64,000 nt of DNA from Bacteroidia bacterium (lineage in GTDB: Bacteria > Bacteroidota > Bacteroidia > DATLTG01): NCBI GenBank assembly GCA_039924845.1, contig JBDTAC010000089.1, positions 1 through 64,000 of the forward strand, read 5' to 3'. Numbering within the stretch: the first letter of the stretch is position 1; each line of letters opens with the position of its first letter. The position numbers and the translations under genes were made by a program. Under the pieces are notes generated by a model, which made no database searches, was not told where the DNA came from, and worked only from the letters and a program-made list of their open reading frames with translations. Of the stretch, positions 10,071 through 62,813 are shown in pieces.

Positions 10071-10280
10071 AAGCTGTTAGTGTCTTACTAAGAGCTGTTA
10101 GTGTCTACTTAAGAACTGTTAGTGTGTTACTAAGAGCTGTTAGTGCCTTACTAAGAACTGTTAGTACCTACCTAAGAACTGTAAGTAACACACTAAGAAC
10201 TGTTAGTGCCTTACTAAGAGCTCTAAGTGTCTACCTAAGAACTGTAAGTTACACACTAAGAACTCTAAGTATCCTGCTAA
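10071..10280. repeat. Tandem array, ten units of exactly 21 bp
   Basis: The base C of the CTGT/CTGTA/CTCTA step recurs at 10074, 10095, 10116, 10137, 10158, 10179, 10200, 10221, 10242 and 10263, a strict 21-base period. Each unit has a conserved core of about 15 bases, CTAAGARCTGTTAGT, which is an imperfect palindrome, and about 6 variable bases (TCTTAC, CCTTAC, ACACAC and others). A 21-base period puts successive sites on the same helix face. Conserved core plus free spacer suggests protein-binding sites more than a coding repeat. Confidence 0.85.
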
Positions 10281-10445: not shown

Positions 10446-10991
10446 ATGGAAACAAAACAGACTTCTATTCTCGCTCCTGCGCTTATCGCTGGTGTTATTG
10501 CCGCTGCTGCGTGCATTATTTATTCGTTAATTTTGAACGCTGCCATTAAAGGCTTGCCGCCAAAGGGAACGCAATACGTCAGTTATTTACTGTTAATACT
10601 GGTTATTTTTTTCGCTACAAAGCAATTTAGAGAAAAGAAAGCGGAAGGATTTATTTCGTACGGTAAAGCGCTTGGCTTTGGAACACTTATCAGCGGAGTT
10701 ACGGCTGTTTTGTATGCGCCCTACATGTATATTTACATGACCTTTATTAACCCAAATCTGATTAATCAGATTATGGAACAAGCTCAAATAAAGATGGCAA
10801 ATACCCCAAATATGACACCTGAAGCTATGGACATGGCGATGAAAAGTATAAAAATATTTACCAGTCCTAGTGTTATGGCGATTATAACCATCGTGGGATT
10901 TCTTTTTATCGGCTTTATTATTTCCTTGATTACTGCTGCTATTCTTCAAAAAGACAAACCTGTTTTTGAAACTCCCGATACACAAGCTTGA
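10446..10991 (+). CDS. DUF4199 family membrane protein
   Basis: A 181-aa inner-membrane protein with four hydrophobic segments: ILAPALIAGVIAAAACIIYS (8-27), YVSYLLLILVIFFA (44-57), an amphipathic one around 76-98, and VMAIITIVGFLFIGFIISLITAAIL (140-165). The cytoplasmic KQFREKKAEGFISYGKALGFGTLISGV is the usual family signature. Function unknown. In Bacteroidota this family often precedes a GT2 glycosyltransferase, as it does here: the next ATG lies one base after its stop. Confidence 0.85.
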   Translation: METKQTSILAPALIAGVIAAAACIIYSLILNAAIKGLPPKGTQYVSYLLLILVIFFATKQFREKKAEGFISYGKALGFGTLISGVTAVLYAPYMYIYMTFINPNLINQIMEQAQIKMANTPNMTPEAMDMAMKSIKIFTSPSVMAIITIVGFLFIGFIISLITAAILQKDKPVFETPDTQA

Positions 10992-23455: not shown

Positions 23456-23477
23456 TTCGAAAAATTATTTTTTCAAA
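23456..23477. repeat. Dispersed AT palindrome copy
   Basis: First of three copies within 180 bases in the divergent gap between the response regulator and truA. Confidence 0.65.
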
Positions 23478-51845: not shown

Positions 51846-51887
51846 AAAAAAGCCGTTCGAAAAATTATTTTTTTGAACGGCTTTTTT
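51846..51887. terminator. gyrB terminator built on the AT palindrome
   Basis: AAAAAAGCCGTTC (51846-51858) pairs with GAACGGCTTTTTT (51875-51887) around the GAAAAATTATTTTTTT-type core. T runs occur on both strands. It lies 34 bases after the gyrB stop. Confidence 0.9.
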
Positions 51888-56031: not shown

Positions 56032-59000
56032 ATGAAAAAAAAATTACTCGCAAAAAGTGTAACATTACTTTTAGTTGCAACTCTGTTAAGCCCAAACATA
56101 TTTGCACAAAACTCCGGAACAAATTGGTTAATCCATTACAACTATTCAAAAGACAGAGTTTTTTTGGAGAATAAAGGGCAGTTTTCAAATGAAGGAAATG
56201 GGAATTCGGCTATTAAATATGGGTTTGACGACGGTCAATCAAAAATTTATTTTACGGATAAAGGCATTCTGTACCGCTTCGATAAAAAGGAGGATACACC
56301 TCAAAATAATGAAGCAGGGGACAAGGATGAGCATAAAATAACCGTTAAAACAGACATTGTTTCTGCTATTTGGGAAGGCGCTAACAGCAATGTGCAAATC
56401 ATAGGTGAATCTCCAAGGTCTGATTACTTTAGCTATAGCATTAATAATAATGGAATCTTACGAAATATCAATCACATTGCAGCATTCCAAAAAATAATTT
56501 ATAAAAACCTTTATCCTAACATTGATGTAGAATATATTTTTCATCCTGATGAAGGAATTGAATATTCCTTGATTTTGCATCCAGGTGCAGATATTAATCA
56601 AGTAAAATTAAAATATTCGGATGGACATCGAGTACGTTTGGTAGATGGAGATACTCATATAACTACCTCATTTGGCGACATTATAGATCACGCACCTCTT
56701 GCATTTTATTCAGACAACCATTCCAATATTATATCCTCTCGTTTCGTAAAAAATTCGAATACCATTTTTTTTGGCTTAGTAAATTATGATACTTCAAAAG
56801 AAGTAACAATTGACCCTTGGACCATTGCTCCAGCATTTTCGAATAGTAATAAAGTTTGGAATACACAGGTTGATGCTGCAGGAAATGTATATTTATATGG
56901 AGGTGATAGTCCTTTGGCTTTAAAGAAGTACAGTGCTGCAGGATTACTTCAATGGACTTACAATACACCTTGGGATTCAGCTAATTATTGGATGGGTACG
57001 ATGATTACCGATTTAGCTGGAAACTCTTATGTTACTTCTGGTTCTAACGGTGAGATTTCAAAGATAACTACTGGAGGAGCTTTGGTTTGGCACAATAATC
57101 CTAATGGACTTTTCGGACCACTTTTCGAATATTGGCATTTGGCCTTTAATTGCGATCAAACTCAGTTAGTAGTTGGCGGAATGAAAACTCCGAGTGCGTT
57201 TTCAATCAATGGCTATCGAGGCGCCATTATGACTATTAATCTCGCCAATGGAAGTATAACGAATACGATTATTGTTGGCGGCTTTTCTGGATTAGCTACA
57301 ATTCATGAAGTCAGAGCTATTTGCCCTTCCTCCAATGGTAATTTTTATTTTATGACCTTAGATTCTATCGGATCGGTAACTCCCGCTCTAACATTAAACT
57401 ATAAATCCATTAATGGGTATAATTTTTCTTATGGTAGTCCAAGTTACACCGTTAAAGGCAACTTGGGTTTAAATGCGATGAAGACAAACGGAAATTTCAT
57501 CTATACACAAAATGGAAAAACTGTTGACAAACGTAATATAAGTAATGGAGCTATCATAGCAAGTTCTCCTATTCCAGGTGGAATTTCATCCTCCTTTTTT
57601 GGAGCAAGTTCTCCGGGTAACAGTGGATTAGATATAGACAGTTGCGGCAATGTATATGTTGGCTCTGGCAATCAAGTAGTACAATATGATGCCAATTTGA
57701 ATCAGCTTTCCACTGCTGCTACACCTTCTGCTGTATATGATGTTGCCGTTAATAAAAACGGAGAGGTAATTGCTTGTGGAAATGGGTTTGCAACCTCATT
57801 GGCAATGGCAAATTGCCATCCGATAAAATCGATTTGTGTGATATGTGTTCCTCCAACAATAAACATCACGGCTTTGCCAACTACCATTTGCGCGGGAAGT
57901 AATACTGTTCTAACAGCAAGCGGTGGAACAACTTATAGTTGGAGCACAGGCGCGACCACTAATCCAATAACATTAAATCCGGCAACTACCACTACTTATA
58001 CCGTAACAGGCACTACAGGTGGATGTTCTGGAACTGCTACGGTAACTGTTATCGTAAATCCATTACCAACAGTTGCAGTTAATTCACCAACTATTTGTGC
58101 AGGAACTTCAGCAACCTTAACAGGAACAGGTGCTACGACATACAGTTGGAGTACAGGTGCTACGACGAATCCGATAACTGTAAATCCAGCAAGTGCAACT
58201 TCTTATACGGTAACCGGCACTACAGGTGGTTGTTCAGGAACAGCAGTAGCGACAGTAACAGTAGTTCCAAGTTTAGGAATAACGATTAATCCATCACCAG
58301 TAACAATTTGTGCAGGTACGAATACGACATTGACAGCAAGCGGTGGAACAACTTATAGTTGGAGTACAGGCGCGACCACTAATCCAATAACATTAAATCC
58401 GGCAAGTACGACTACTTATACAGTAACAGGCACAACAGGTGGATGTACAGGAACGTCAACGGTAACTGTAACCGTAAATCCATTACCAACAGTATCGGTT
58501 AATTCACCAACAATTTGTGCAGGTACGAATACGACGCTGACAGCAAGTGGAGGAACAACTTACAGTTGGAGCACAGGCGCAACAACAAATCCAATAACAG
58601 TGAATCCGGCAGCAACGACAACTTATACCGTAACAGGAACTACTGGTGGCTGTTCAGGAACTGCCGTAGCAACGGTAACCGTAAACCCATTACCAGTAGT
58701 AACGGTTAACTCACCAACAATTTGTGCAGGTACGAATACGACGCTGACAGCAAGTGGTGGAACAACTTACAGTTGGAGTACAGGTGCTACAACGAATCCA
58801 ATAACCGTAAATCCTGCAAGTACGACAACTTATACCGTAACAGGAACAAAGACAGGATGTACAGGTAGTATAACAGCCACAGTAACAGTAGATCCGGCAA
58901 TCGTTTTAAATCCATCATCTACTCCAGCTACATGTGGAGGCAGCAATGGCAGTGTGGGTGTAGCAGCTTCGGGTGGTATAGGCACTTATACTTATTCTTG

Positions 59001-61251
59001 GAACCCTGGAGGAGCGGGTACAGCAAGTGTAGCGAATTTGAGTTCTGGATCTTATACCGTAACGGTAACGGATGCCAGCGGTTGTACACAAACAGCAATA
59101 GCCAATATAACAAATACAGGAGGTATTACATCTGTAACAAATAGTGCAACACCTGCAACGTGTGGTAAAAATAATGGAAAAGATACGATAACGAGTATAA
59201 CAGGTGGTACATCGCCTTATACTTATTCTTGGTCAGGAGGACAAACTACCTCTGGTATATCGGGTCAAGCAGCAGGTACATACAACGTAACGGTAACAGA
59301 TGCAAACGGTTGTAAGTACCCAACTTCTGTAATAATACCTGGTACACCTGCTGTTTCAATTACAATGGGTGTAGCAACGAATGTTAGTTGTAATGGAGGT
59401 AATAATGGAAAAGATTCAATAATTGTTTCAGGTGGTACAGGATCTTATACGTATTCTTGGAATACAATTCCTCCACAATCAAGCGCTACAGCGACTGGTT
59501 TAGCAATGGGGAATTATACTGTAACCGTAACAGATGCGAGTGGATGTTCGGCAACAGGAACCATCAACATTACTCAACCAACTAAATTAGATACATCAAC
59601 AAGCTATGTTAACGAATTGTGTAACGGCGGCAATAATGGAACTGCAACTGTTAATGTAACAGGAGGCACAGGAGCTTATACGTATGTTTGGACACCAAAC
59701 GTTAGTAGTACAGGAACTGCCACGGCATTATCAGCAGGAGCTTATTCCTTAACGGTGAAGGATGCCAACGGATGTAGTATTAGTAAATCATTTACAATTA
59801 CTCAACCGAGTGCGATTGTTTTAAACACATCTTCAACACCGGCTACCTGCGGTTTGTCAAATGGAACAACTACTGTAAATAGCAATGGCGGAACAGGATC
59901 ATACACCTATTCATGGAATTCTATTCCTGCTCAAACTACACAAACTGCAACTGGTTTAAATGTTGGTACGTATACTGCAACAGTAACAGATGCCAATGGT
60001 TGCACACAGACAGCCTCGGCAACAGTGAGTGTTGGACTTGTTACGATTAATATAAACCCTTCACCTGTAAGTATTTGTTTGGGAGATAGTACACTCTTAA
60101 CTGCAAGCGGAGCAAGTACTTATAGTTGGAGCCCAGCTACGGGATTGAGTTCATCAACTGTCTCAAATCCAACAGCTAAACCAATATCTACAACCACTTA
60201 TACAGTAACTGGAACTTCCGGAATATGTACTGCTTCTGCAAGTGTTGTAGTAACAGTAAATTTACTTCCTGTAATAACGGTAAATCCCTCTCCTGCTAAT
60301 ATTTGCCAAGGAAGTAGCACCATTTTAACAGCAAATGGAGCTGTTACGTATGCCTGGATTCCGAATACAGGACTCAGTAGCACAACAGGCTCTTCTGTAA
60401 CAGCAAGTCCAGCTTCTACAATCACTTATACCGTAACAGGAACCAATGCTGCGGGTTGTTCCAACAACATTACTGTGAAGGTAATTGTAAATCCGAAACC
60501 AATTATAGACAGTTTAAGTGCGATTGTGTCACCGCCTTTGTGTAAAGGCATGAAAGGCAGCATTTCTGGTATTGTTGTAACTGGTGGAACCAGCCCATAT
60601 ACTTATTTATGGACACCTACTGGACAAAACACCGTAAATGCAACAGGATTAGCCGCCGGAAGTTACACTTTAACGGTAACCGATGCATCTGGATGTACAG
60701 CTAATTCAGGACCGTATATCCTTACAAACAGTTCCGTAACAGCTTCGTTTATTGCTAACCCTGATTCAGGAATTGCTCCTTTGCAAGTAAATTTCACCAA
60801 TACAAGTACTGGCGCAAATAGTTATGAATGGTATTTAGGCAATGGAGATACGACCAACGCAACTAATCCGAATACGACATATCAAAATACTGGCGCGTAC
60901 AATGTGGAATTAATTGCAACAAATGCCAATGGTTGCAAAGATACCGCCTATGGTAAAATAGATGTATATGGTCAATCTATATTGATTATCCCAAATGTGT
61001 TTTCTCCTAATGGTGATGGTAAAAATGACCTGTTTACTGTGAAATCCTCCGGAATAGTCGCACTTCATGGAGAAATATTTGACAGATGGGGCATTAAATT
61101 ATATTCATGGGATGGCTCAAGTGGAGGTTGGAATGGTGTTAATACAAGCGGAGTAGAAGTTCCTGCTGGTACTTATTATTATCTTATTACTGCCACTGGA
61201 GTGGATGGTAAGAAATATGTTGAAAAAGGATATTTGACACTTTTAAGATAA
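56032..61251 (+). CDS. Giant T9SS surface protein with Ig-like and SprB-like repeats
   Basis: 1739 aa. After a signal peptide (1-25) comes a DUF7948-like domain (about 45-275, FLENKGQF ... YDTSKEVTIDPW), a WD/SBBP-like propeller region (about 280-610), then five Ig-like units of 69-70 aa (about 615-960, motif CAG-[ST]-NTTLTASGGTTYSWST), SprB-like units of about 75-80 aa (about 965-1340, motif NGGxGxYTYSW and TVTDASGC), two more Ig-like units, another SprB-like unit, a PKD domain (about 1580-1650) and the gliding-motility C-terminal domain (about 1653-1739, IIPNVFSPNGDGKNDLF ... YYYLITATG). That last part is the type B sorting signal. Likely a secreted, cell-surface adhesin. Confidence 0.88.
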   Translation: MKKKLLAKSVTLLLVATLLSPNIFAQNSGTNWLIHYNYSKDRVFLENKGQFSNEGNGNSAIKYGFDDGQSKIYFTDKGILYRFDKKEDTPQNNEAGDKDEHKITVKTDIVSAIWEGANSNVQIIGESPRSDYFSYSINNNGILRNINHIAAFQKIIYKNLYPNIDVEYIFHPDEGIEYSLILHPGADINQVKLKYSDGHRVRLVDGDTHITTSFGDIIDHAPLAFYSDNHSNIISSRFVKNSNTIFFGLVNYDTSKEVTIDPWTIAPAFSNSNKVWNTQVDAAGNVYLYGGDSPLALKKYSAAGLLQWTYNTPWDSANYWMGTMITDLAGNSYVTSGSNGEISKITTGGALVWHNNPNGLFGPLFEYWHLAFNCDQTQLVVGGMKTPSAFSINGYRGAIMTINLANGSITNTIIVGGFSGLATIHEVRAICPSSNGNFYFMTLDSIGSVTPALTLNYKSINGYNFSYGSPSYTVKGNLGLNAMKTNGNFIYTQNGKTVDKRNISNGAIIASSPIPGGISSSFFGASSPGNSGLDIDSCGNVYVGSGNQVVQYDANLNQLSTAATPSAVYDVAVNKNGEVIACGNGFATSLAMANCHPIKSICVICVPPTINITALPTTICAGSNTVLTASGGTTYSWSTGATTNPITLNPATTTTYTVTGTTGGCSGTATVTVIVNPLPTVAVNSPTICAGTSATLTGTGATTYSWSTGATTNPITVNPASATSYTVTGTTGGCSGTAVATVTVVPSLGITINPSPVTICAGTNTTLTASGGTTYSWSTGATTNPITLNPASTTTYTVTGTTGGCTGTSTVTVTVNPLPTVSVNSPTICAGTNTTLTASGGTTYSWSTGATTNPITVNPAATTTYTVTGTTGGCSGTAVATVTVNPLPVVTVNSPTICAGTNTTLTASGGTTYSWSTGATTNPITVNPASTTTYTVTGTKTGCTGSITATVTVDPAIVLNPSSTPATCGGSNGSVGVAASGGIGTYTYSWNPGGAGTASVANLSSGSYTVTVTDASGCTQTAIANITNTGGITSVTNSATPATCGKNNGKDTITSITGGTSPYTYSWSGGQTTSGISGQAAGTYNVTVTDANGCKYPTSVIIPGTPAVSITMGVATNVSCNGGNNGKDSIIVSGGTGSYTYSWNTIPPQSSATATGLAMGNYTVTVTDASGCSATGTINITQPTKLDTSTSYVNELCNGGNNGTATVNVTGGTGAYTYVWTPNVSSTGTATALSAGAYSLTVKDANGCSISKSFTITQPSAIVLNTSSTPATCGLSNGTTTVNSNGGTGSYTYSWNSIPAQTTQTATGLNVGTYTATVTDANGCTQTASATVSVGLVTININPSPVSICLGDSTLLTASGASTYSWSPATGLSSSTVSNPTAKPISTTTYTVTGTSGICTASASVVVTVNLLPVITVNPSPANICQGSSTILTANGAVTYAWIPNTGLSSTTGSSVTASPASTITYTVTGTNAAGCSNNITVKVIVNPKPIIDSLSAIVSPPLCKGMKGSISGIVVTGGTSPYTYLWTPTGQNTVNATGLAAGSYTLTVTDASGCTANSGPYILTNSSVTASFIANPDSGIAPLQVNFTNTSTGANSYEWYLGNGDTTNATNPNTTYQNTGAYNVELIATNANGCKDTAYGKIDVYGQSILIIPNVFSPNGDGKNDLFTVKSSGIVALHGEIFDRWGIKLYSWDGSSGGWNGVNTSGVEVPAGTYYYLITATGVDGKKYVEKGYLTLLR
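57850..58900 (+). repeat. Five tandem units of about 207-210 bp in the adhesin gene
   Basis: Units begin near 57862, 58075, 58282, 58489 and 58696. The segment from 58504 recurs at 58711, 207 bases later, and 58084 to 58504 is two units. Near-identical DNA within units 3-5 would allow copy-number change by recombination, with no frame loss because each unit is a multiple of three. Confidence 0.8.
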
Positions 61252-61342
61252 TTGTATTTAAAGCTTTTAAAATCACACAATGAAATGTTAAGCAGATACT
61301 TTCATTTCTAAGTAAATCACTTAGAGATGAAAGTATTTCATT
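61252..61342. other. Non-coding gap between the adhesin and the second 21-bp array
   Basis: No gene seen. An AAGTATTTCATTT/AAATGAAATGTT-type inverted stretch (about 61280-61340) may be a weak terminator for the adhesin gene. Confidence 0.35.
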
Positions 61343-61603
61343 TACAGTTCTTAACTACCTACTCACAGCTCATACTGCCTCACTCACAGTTCTTAGTGTC
61401 ATACTAACAGTTCTTAGTGTCATGCTCACAGTTCTTAGTGGTATACTCACAGCTCTTAGCGCCTAACTAACAGTTCTTAGTGTCATGCTCACAGCTCTTA
61501 GTGCCTCACTCACAGCTCTTAGTGTCATGCTAACAGCTCTTAGTGTCATGCTCACAGCTCTTAGTGCCTCACTCACAGTTCTTAGTGTCATACTAACAGC
61601 TCT
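61343..61603. repeat. Second tandem array, about 12.4 units of 21 bp
   Basis: Units run from 61343 to 61603 with a strict 21-base step, core ACAGTTCTTAGT or ACAGCTCTTAGT and a variable part (GTCATACT, GCCTCACT and others). The core ACTAACAGTTCTTAGT is the reverse complement of the core of the array at 10071-10280, so the two arrays are related and point in opposite directions. Confidence 0.85.
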
Positions 61604-61626
61604 ATAATAGGCAAGTTCTCTTTAAA

Positions 61627-61794
61627 ATGATTAAAATTGAAAAGGAAGAATTGAACAGGCAGAAAATCGCTATCCACTACTTGATACAACAAATGCAAGA
61701 GCAGCTTTTTCCTTCTTCTTTGGAAAGAAATCAGCTAAGGTTTAAAATGAACATCATAAAAATCATATCTTTGATACTCATTTACCACTTATGA
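61627..61794 (+). CDS. Possible small protein of 55 aa
   Basis: ATG 61627 to TGA 61794, MIKIEKEELNRQKIAIHYLI then QQMQEQLFPSSLERNQLRFK and a hydrophobic tail. The stop overlaps the next ATG (ATGA). The N-terminus is charged and helical. A -7 box lies inside its 3' part (61766-61773), which argues that the next gene has its own promoter, so the call is weak. No known family. Confidence 0.35.
   Translation: MIKIEKEELNRQKIAIHYLIQQMQEQLFPSSLERNQLRFKMNIIKIISLILIYHL
61766..61773 (+). promoter_or_regulatory. -7 box upstream of the poly-G cargo gene
   Basis: TATCTTTG, 17 bases before the ATG at 61791, fits TAnnTTTG. Confidence 0.5.
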
Positions 61795-62813
61795 GAAAAA
61801 TTATTTTTCTTGCTTTTTATTTTTGTGTGTTTTCCTTTTCAGTGAAAACAAAAGCGCAAAACCTTGTGCCTAATTACAGTTTTGAAGACACGATACAATG
61901 TAGTCCAAATGGTCAATTTACAGGTTATGTGAAGAATTGGACAGGACAAGGGGGCGGGGGGGGACTCGAATATTTTACTTCACAATGCTCAGATTATTAC
62001 TTTGGAGTTCCTACAAATGATGTTGGACATCAAAATGCACATACTGGAGTGTCGTATGCGGGTATTTATACGTATGTAGATTCCCTATATTATCCCACAG
62101 ATCCTAATAACAGAGATTATATACAGGATAGCTTAATAAGCTCACTAATAGCTGGAACTAAGTATTATCTTACTTTTTACGTAAGTTTAACAGATACTAT
62201 GGCATACGCTTGCAATAATATGGGGGCGTATTTTTCTGATTCGGCTTTAGTGTTTAACAATACAACAAATGGAAGGGTAAAACCCTACCTGCATCCGCAG
62301 GTAATAAATGATGTTGTACATAACCCTTTGACTGATAAAGTAAACTGGATGAAGGTAAGCGGCAGTTTTGTGGCAGCAGGGGGGGAACAATACATTGTGA
62401 TTGGTAATTTTGTGGACGATGCTCATGTAGATACCGTTTTTGTCGGTCCAAAAAATTCGTTGTATTCATTAACAGCTTACTATTACATAGATGATGTAAT
62501 AGTAAGCACGGATAGCACATACTCAGATAGCTTGTTTACAGGAGTAAATGAAATAAAGCCTGTTAAGGCAAATGTAAAAGTATATCCAAACCCAGCAACT
62601 AATTTATTGAATGTAGCAGTGGATATGCAACAAATTAAATCAGGTAGTATTTGTTTGTATAACACAACCGGACAAAGAGTAGAATGCGAAGATTTATCTG
62701 GTAATATTACAAGCATTTCAACTAATAAATTATCAGCAGGTTTATATTATTATAGAATAACAGATAGCTATGGCAATTTAGTAAAAGCAGATAAGGTTGT
62801 TATAACGCACTAA
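61791..62813 (+). CDS. T9SS type A cargo protein with poly-G tracts
   Basis: 340 aa with a signal peptide (MRKIIFLAFYFCVFSFSVKTKAQ). The mature part begins NLVPNYSFEDTIQCSPNGQFTGYVKNWTG, a galactose-binding-like module often found in Bacteroidota surface proteins, with paired Cys. It ends in a type A sorting domain (about 255-340, VKVYPNPATNLLNVAVDMQQ ... LSAGLYYYRITDSYGNLVKADKVVI). Two runs of G lie within the coding DNA (61950-61963 and 62379-62385), unusual for AT-rich DNA. Function is unknown; probably exposed on or released from the cell surface. Confidence 0.82.
   Translation: MRKIIFLAFYFCVFSFSVKTKAQNLVPNYSFEDTIQCSPNGQFTGYVKNWTGQGGGGGLEYFTSQCSDYYFGVPTNDVGHQNAHTGVSYAGIYTYVDSLYYPTDPNNRDYIQDSLISSLIAGTKYYLTFYVSLTDTMAYACNNMGAYFSDSALVFNNTTNGRVKPYLHPQVINDVVHNPLTDKVNWMKVSGSFVAAGGEQYIVIGNFVDDAHVDTVFVGPKNSLYSLTAYYYIDDVIVSTDSTYSDSLFTGVNEIKPVKANVKVYPNPATNLLNVAVDMQQIKSGSICLYNTTGQRVECEDLSGNITSISTNKLSAGLYYYRITDSYGNLVKADKVVITH
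61950..61963 (+). repeat. Poly-G tract (G5-C-G8) within the cargo gene
   Basis: Five G, a C and eight G code GQGGGGGL (residues about 53-60). A slip of one base would truncate the protein, which is the usual form of a phase-variable tract. A second G7 run is at 62379-62385. Confidence 0.7.

Follow-up and report, generated by a model that had tools for sequence, protein, structure and literature searches.

A small helical protein family linked to intergenic arrays with a 21-bp step in Bacteroidota: a putative gene-array system with satellites in front of surface-protein genes

Plasmid iterons are direct repeats placed about two helical turns apart beside the Rep gene, each replicon having its own repeat sequence. 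In parC/ParR centromeres, a short direct-repeat array lies beside a small protein gene, also with a sequence particular to each system, and in REP/RAYT the gene for a transposase-like enzyme is flanked by its repeat, a single palindrome of which many orphan copies occur. BrickBuilt, a MITE of Porphyromonas gingivalis, has a 23-bp unit of one sequence, with a leader and a tail carrying terminal inverted repeats; it is found in one species and displayed outward promoter activity in a reporter assay (PMC4596501). Finally, direct repeats of the heptamer TAACTGA were described in Beggiatoaceae, Cyanobacteria and some Bacteroidetes (PMC4679880).

Here, the analysed stretch of DNA (64,000 nucleotides from a Bacteroidia bacterium, hereafter the window) contained two tandem arrays with a step of 21 bp. 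Array B (61339..61606, + strand) comprises about 12 units with the consensus ACT(C/A)ACAG(C/T)TCTTAGTGyCwy; TRF placed it at 61360-61603 (period 21, 11.6 copies, 78% matches, 0% indels), and a degenerate first unit begins at about 61339. Array A (10074..10269, − strand; TRF 10074-10264, period 21, 9.1 copies) is found upstream of a gene designated P0002, shares the core of array B and reads ACTAACAG.. on the minus strand. The original prediction of an array with a 21-base step and a core reverse-complementary to that of the array at 10.1 kb was confirmed by TRF and core comparison, the core ACTAACAGTTCTTAGT of array B being the reverse complement of ACTAAGAACTGTTAGT in array A. With 3 mismatches allowed, the core pattern had 54 matches in the window versus 18.5 +/- 5.3 in shuffles, an excess accounted for by arrays A and B. 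A search for gapless arrays over the whole 64 kb (lags 8-60, score 30) detected none beyond these two, at lags 21 and 42; a third TRF array in the window has a period of 207 and is coding. Rfam, at gathering threshold, gave no match in 148 kb including both arrays. The opposite direction ascribed to the two arrays holds on the + strand but is trivial: read along the strand of its downstream gene, each has the unit ACTAACAGTTCTTAG (P0002 on −, cargo gene on +), so that their orientation relative to that gene is the same. Likewise, no meaning could be supported for the 51 kb between them. Arrays A and B are not a pair but two of many arrays in the genome. Another repeat in the window is the AT-rich palindrome TTsrAAAAATwATTTTTysAA, with 27 sites at up to 2 mismatches versus 0.1 expected (for example 23456-23476 and 51856-51876); about 50 exact copies of its 15-mer core occur in 242 kb of the genome, some of them inside ORFs by a crude ORF call.

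As predicted, array B is flanked by two T9SS cargo genes. Upstream, an adhesin gene (56032..61251, +) encodes a product of 1739 aa with SprB/PKD/Ig_7 features and a CHU_C/type B sorting signal; downstream, a gene with a Por_Secre_tail/type A signal (61791..62813, +) belongs to a mosaic paralog family. Between array B and this cargo gene is a 55-codon ORF (61627..61794, +), which overlaps the cargo start as ATGA and whose DNA is 97-98% identical in the cassettes of contigs C26 and C54. This ORF may be fortuitous, since a promoter box (see below) lies inside it. Early in the cargo gene is a G8 tract (61956..61963, +), where the C26 and C54 paralogs (L040 and L042) have G10 and G9, respectively, and are frameshifted. 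These poly-G tracts of 8-10 bases, together with the frameshifts in C26 and C54, suggest phase variation or homopolymer error.

A search of the source genome (2.66 Mb, 101 contigs) for the core recovered further occurrences, with 8 core-bearing arrays in all, six of them beyond the window (C26, C32, C41 at 35.7 kb, C54, C70 and C72). About 12-15 more arrays belong to other sequence families, of which there are at least three. Arrays of differing families adjoin P0002 paralogs on C84, C86 and C74, and satellites of differing families occur on C100, C23, C74 (27.2 kb), C90, C65, C41 (71.6 and 64.9 kb), C68, C73, C15 and C57; a further array type at C70:11.2 kb fits none of the assigned families. 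The total is given as about 20 arrays because pieces at contig ends may in some cases be opposite ends of a single array. Many more arrays were thus found in the genome, where the original prediction had named their absence as evidence against it. Over 22 of these arrays, the step was exactly 21 bp in 357 of 359 local steps, even though the identity of neighbouring units drops to about 58%. Two unit types alternate in some arrays, C23, C74 and C90 having an identity of 0.77-0.89 at 42 bp versus 0.58 at 21. Stops in all six frames were found in 7 of 26 arrays, indicating that the arrays are not coding. No other genome of the class, among 98 searched, contained the core, which is therefore private to the source genome; in distant relatives, conservation extends to the gene and the step of 21 bp but not to the core. 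Plasmid and phage collections contained no match to the array, and viral contigs likewise gave nothing. An inversion polymorphism at C70/C72/C50 was considered and rejected, as C50 and C93 have the same leader and the common 127-mer is an assembly overlap.

P0002 (9504..9920, −), the gene downstream of array A, encodes a 138-aa helical protein of an undescribed family and has 5 copies in the genome. No relative was found in Pfam, PADLOC, PHROGs or PDB, and NCBIfam gave only a meaningless match. At the family level, Pfam detected no DNA-binding domain at E<=10, PADLOC models of anti-phage defence matched none of 11 members at E<=0.1, and plasmid and phage collections gave nothing for a family protein. 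The AlphaFold models of P0002 and of the L128 homolog, which is 32% identical (pLDDT 83 and 88, respectively), agree on helices at 15-31/35, 40-78, 92-106 and 111-117; in the predicted monomer, an N-terminal extended segment precedes the helices, and no strand is called. Fold searches with both models returned nothing similar among solved structures, nor did the P0002 model match viral structures (E>0.8). Single-domain members mostly have basic N- and C-termini and, between them, a near-neutral or acidic helical body. By reading, the members L101, L102, L103, L113 and L118 have two tandem domains and/or C-terminal extensions that are Ig-like or carboxypeptidase-regulatory-like, with no evident signal peptide. 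Beyond the source genome, homologs came from 14 genomes of the class, six named MAG contigs and few other sources. The MAG contigs include those of L128, from a MAG labelled Verrucomicrobia subdivision 3, and of L129, whose homolog is 96% identical to that of L128; here the 21-bp array is degenerate (TTCGTCATGGTTGAATGTTCT) and has one 1-bp slip (lag 62). None of 395 other genomes drawn across the phylum had the family, and in one order it was present in 2 of 87 genomes; its distribution is thus patchy.

All five copies of P0002 in the source genome have a 21-bp array directly upstream, and these arrays are of four sequence types. This association was assessed over 25 non-redundant homologs (<90% identity) from Bacteroidota and two MAGs that look verrucomicrobial, by computing an autocorrelation score over the 600 bp upstream at all lags of 10-40 and comparing it with 20 shuffles. 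An array with a 21-bp step was found upstream in 23 of the 25 homologs, which share ancestry, come mostly from MAGs and represent a patchy family; it was downstream in one (L096), and L106 had none. Lag 21 was the best and scored above all 20 shuffles in 22/25, including six weak arrays (scores 12-17) that each still peaked at 21. Background windows from the same loci had no array of any lag (0/86), and around 100 other genes no other period reached a score of 20, with the exception of one at lag 14; the lag-21 matches seen there are the same arrays reached via neighbour genes, or satellites fetched on purpose. A search of a 9-genome order added one testable homolog, L197, which has the array. 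At this locus, a 7-bp repeat of the CAAGCGA type runs for about 20 copies just above a separate 21-bp array, 21 being 3 x 7.

The array lies within 16-430 bp of the start codon, and its unit differs from locus to locus (ACTAACAGTTCTTAGTAAGGC, CGTTTAGCTCATCGCAAGGCA, ATCAAAGTATGACACTTAGAT, AACCCATTATCTGAGCAGCAA, GAAATACCAAGGGTGGTTCTA) at a constant step, so it is the step that is conserved, not the sequence. Protein similarity correlates with the similarity of array units (Mantel rho 0.44, 0/2000 permutations), and proteins that are 86% identical can have nearly unrelated units. Satellites whose sequence type matches that of the cis array are present in the source genome (G000) and in four others: G158 (C156 and C169), G008 (C3), G086 (C1) and G280 (C43, next to a truncated homolog).

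In the source genome, several T9SS surface-protein genes have a satellite 60-190 bp before them; counting C93, six of these genes belong to a single family of mosaic paralogs. Members of this family directly follow array B and the arrays of C26, C54, C41 and C50, and the C93 paralog, whose contig starts within the shared leader, is very probably array-preceded as well. Large surface-protein genes outside this family follow a further three arrays, at C74:27 kb and C65 (both Por_Secre_tail) and at C41:71.6 kb, the last encoding a PKD/Ig_7 protein whose C-terminus is cut off by the contig end. Arrays C32, C90 and C41:64.9 kb lie between convergent genes, so that not all arrays can act on a promoter; upstream placement of satellites is common, not universal. 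In the array B group, identity is 95-98% across the 200-300 bp that span the array end, the leader and the signal-peptide part, falls to 50-80% in mid-gene and rises again to as much as 97% at the 3' end. The same mosaic was observed in a second group (C50, C41, C93). This pattern argues that gene conversion or recombination moves array and leader together as a 5' module. Across the mosaic genes (61589-62813, C26, C54, C41, C50, C93 and C4), the 3' sorting signal is near-identical in several copies.

The -7-type promoter of Bacteroidota has the consensus TAnnTTTG. Such a box (TATCTTTG, 61766..61773, +) stands 25 bp before the start of the cargo gene, array B ending about 160 bp further upstream; on the far side of array A, the DUF4199 membrane-protein gene (10446..10991, +) has TATCTTTG 27 bp before its start. 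Overall, the box was present 22-41 bp before the start in 8 of 9 non-family genes adjoining arrays, and at these genes the array sits another 30-160 bp upstream of it. The possible influence on surface-protein expression raised by the original prediction is in keeping with this layout, arrays being located upstream of surface-protein promoters. Within 150 bp of P0002-family genes, TAnnTTTG was found in 0/25 cases versus 42/118 control genes (36%; p=7e-5, in a test chosen after seeing the data). This lack of the box makes another mode of transcription probable: P0002-family genes are probably transcribed from an alternative promoter type, and perhaps through the array.

Taken together, these observations point to a system of gene and repeat that has gone unrecognised and has spread ahead of surface-protein genes too. 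The explanation that we favour, at a probability of about 45%, is a two-part chromosomal gene-array system in which the P0002-family protein would use the array as a helically phased platform for binding. Besides this small helical protein, the system would comprise a non-coding array, about 8-14 units long and with a step of exactly 21 bp, which corresponds to two turns of the DNA helix. Beyond the association of gene family and array, which was observed directly, we infer both binding and regulation. Occupying one face of the DNA, the protein, probably as an oligomer, would bind its array cooperatively; through the array in front of its gene it would regulate that gene, and it would act in trans on promoters beside satellite arrays, including that of the surface-protein gene at 61.8 kb. 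The array and its leader would further offer a homology stretch for the exchange or copying of the 5' ends of surface-protein genes. The P0002 family would then be a candidate for the single recognising factor put forward in the original prediction. The platform is favoured because the period, the position, the gene linkage, the satellites and the absence of a standard promoter box all fit it, and is weakened by the lack of a recognisable DNA-binding domain and of any PDB or viral fold match. Strict sequence recognition is doubtful, as the unit changes faster than the protein, and the Ig-like or carboxypeptidase-regulatory-like extensions, unusual for DNA-binding regulators, cast doubt on such a role. 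The association might also have arisen through repeated co-duplication of gene and array, which is possible. More tentatively, we propose a hitherto undescribed chromosomal system of Bacteroidota, and probably of Verrucomicrobiota, whose small helical protein would recognise DNA chiefly by an exact period of 21 bp together with a short linker, and not by a set sequence; each paralog would have its fast-evolving array by its gene, and satellites would bring distant loci, including phase-variable surface-protein genes, into reach.

The main rival to the platform is a mobile minisatellite. The arrays would then be selfish dispersed repeats resembling BrickBuilt or MITEs in general, the P0002 copy being the complete element, the others short derivatives, and any effect on nearby genes a by-product. 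Doubtful as we consider it, this explanation has several observations in its favour: the arrays of C23, C74:27.2 kb and C90 lie at unrelated places but have about 45 bp of flank in common on either side, which in part supports the mobile or recombining repeat of the original prediction as far as dispersal is concerned; many arrays are found at contig ends with identical 127-mers, that is, as recent copies; insertion sites include gaps between convergent genes; and some arrays of the C70/C41 type end in inverted TTAATGAGCTG..CAGCTCATTAA-like sequences. Yet P0002 has no transposase signature, no terminal inverted repeat is constant across arrays, neither an empty site nor a target duplication was demonstrated, and mobility leaves unexplained an exact 21-bp step with unrelated unit sequences in two phyla. 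The same step in two phyla with unrelated sequences also speaks against neutral minisatellites produced by replication slippage, their link to the gene being inherited by descent. The superperiods of 42 and 63 bp and the turnover of units are typical of tandem repeat growth, but the length of a neutral repeat would drift, and it is nearly invariant here, making this origin quite unlikely.

An RNA-level system is unlikely; in it, the transcript of the gene would carry the array in its 5' region, and serial hairpins formed by the array would bind the protein for translational autoregulation. The short distance between array and start codon agrees with it, as do fold energies below those of column-shuffled arrays (mean z -1.6) and, in part of the family, a linker (A/T)(A/T)G(A/G)C between complementary arms that differ by locus, such as TTAGT-AAGGC-ACTAA and ATAAGT-AAGGC-ACTTAT. 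But the opposite strand gives just as strong a fold signal (-1.4), many arrays lack the signal, the linker motif (GTATGRCAC-like) was chosen after looking, and at cargo genes the promoter box is downstream of the array, which is thus not in that mRNA. A palindromic unit was rejected as a general rule, palindromy at the unit level not being significantly above chance as a class over 26 arrays. It is barely credible, lastly, that the arrays code for heptad-repeat peptides (7 codons = 21 bp): many of them hold a long ORF (e.g., MTCSAVREASS..), but chance alone is expected to leave a frame open across a repeat of 21 bp, frame-neutral steps of 18 or 24 were never seen, and the six-frame stops mentioned above contradict it. 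Returning to the platform, a step that is conserved when the sequence is not is the opposite of how binding sites normally evolve and calls for an explanation. With one protein of 138 aa and one array of 250 bp, it would provide a direct handle on a type of intergenic repeat usually dismissed as minisatellite, and in the source genome it is tied to mosaic, probably phase-variable T9SS surface proteins.

Compared with known systems, the arrays resemble iterons as direct repeats at about 2 helical turns beside a candidate cognate gene (array upstream in 23/25 homologs), but are chromosomal, often have more units and have satellites in the genome, with neither Rep homology nor a replication module. 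Searches of Pfam, NCBIfam, PDB and plasmids returned no match identifying P0002 as a replication initiator. Like parC/ParR, they associate a direct-repeat array with a small protein gene, with its own sequence for each system, but the present arrays are chromosomal and multicopy, and no ribbon-helix-helix match was obtained (Pfam, E<=10); no motor NTPase gene was recognised beside the family in the ORF lists of the inspected loci, where neighbours are partly annotated. With REP/RAYT they share a gene with a flanking repeat and many orphan copies elsewhere in the genome, but they are phased arrays rather than single palindromes, and P0002 is not recognisably transposase-like. The likeness to BrickBuilt lies in the phylum (Bacteroidota), in spacerless tandem short repeats that are always intergenic and in many genome copies; BrickBuilt has no linked protein gene, in contrast to the 21-bp step, many unrelated units, linked gene family and two phyla observed here (PMC4596501). 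Among MITE features, dispersed intergenic copies in one genome are present, the 23-bp BrickBuilt unit is replaced by many unit sequences at the 21-bp step, and bounding terminal inverted repeats are not a general trait, inverted ends occurring in some A-type arrays and being absent from the C74 and C84 types. The TAACTGA heptamers, too, are intergenic direct repeats that are dispersed, lie upstream of genes in distant lineages and have been proposed as regulator sites; they differ in being one conserved 7-mer, mostly a few bases from the start codon in the main species, and the abstract of that report mentions no linked gene family (PMC4679880). No description of such a gene-array pair was found in the literature searched, which covers few subscription journals. 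Because each compared system fails, or cannot pass, a defining feature, the putative gene-array system is placed outside the known kinds. Its nearest relatives in architecture are the iterons and ParR/parC. As repeats, BrickBuilt (PMC4596501) and the TAACTGA heptamers (PMC4679880) are the nearest.
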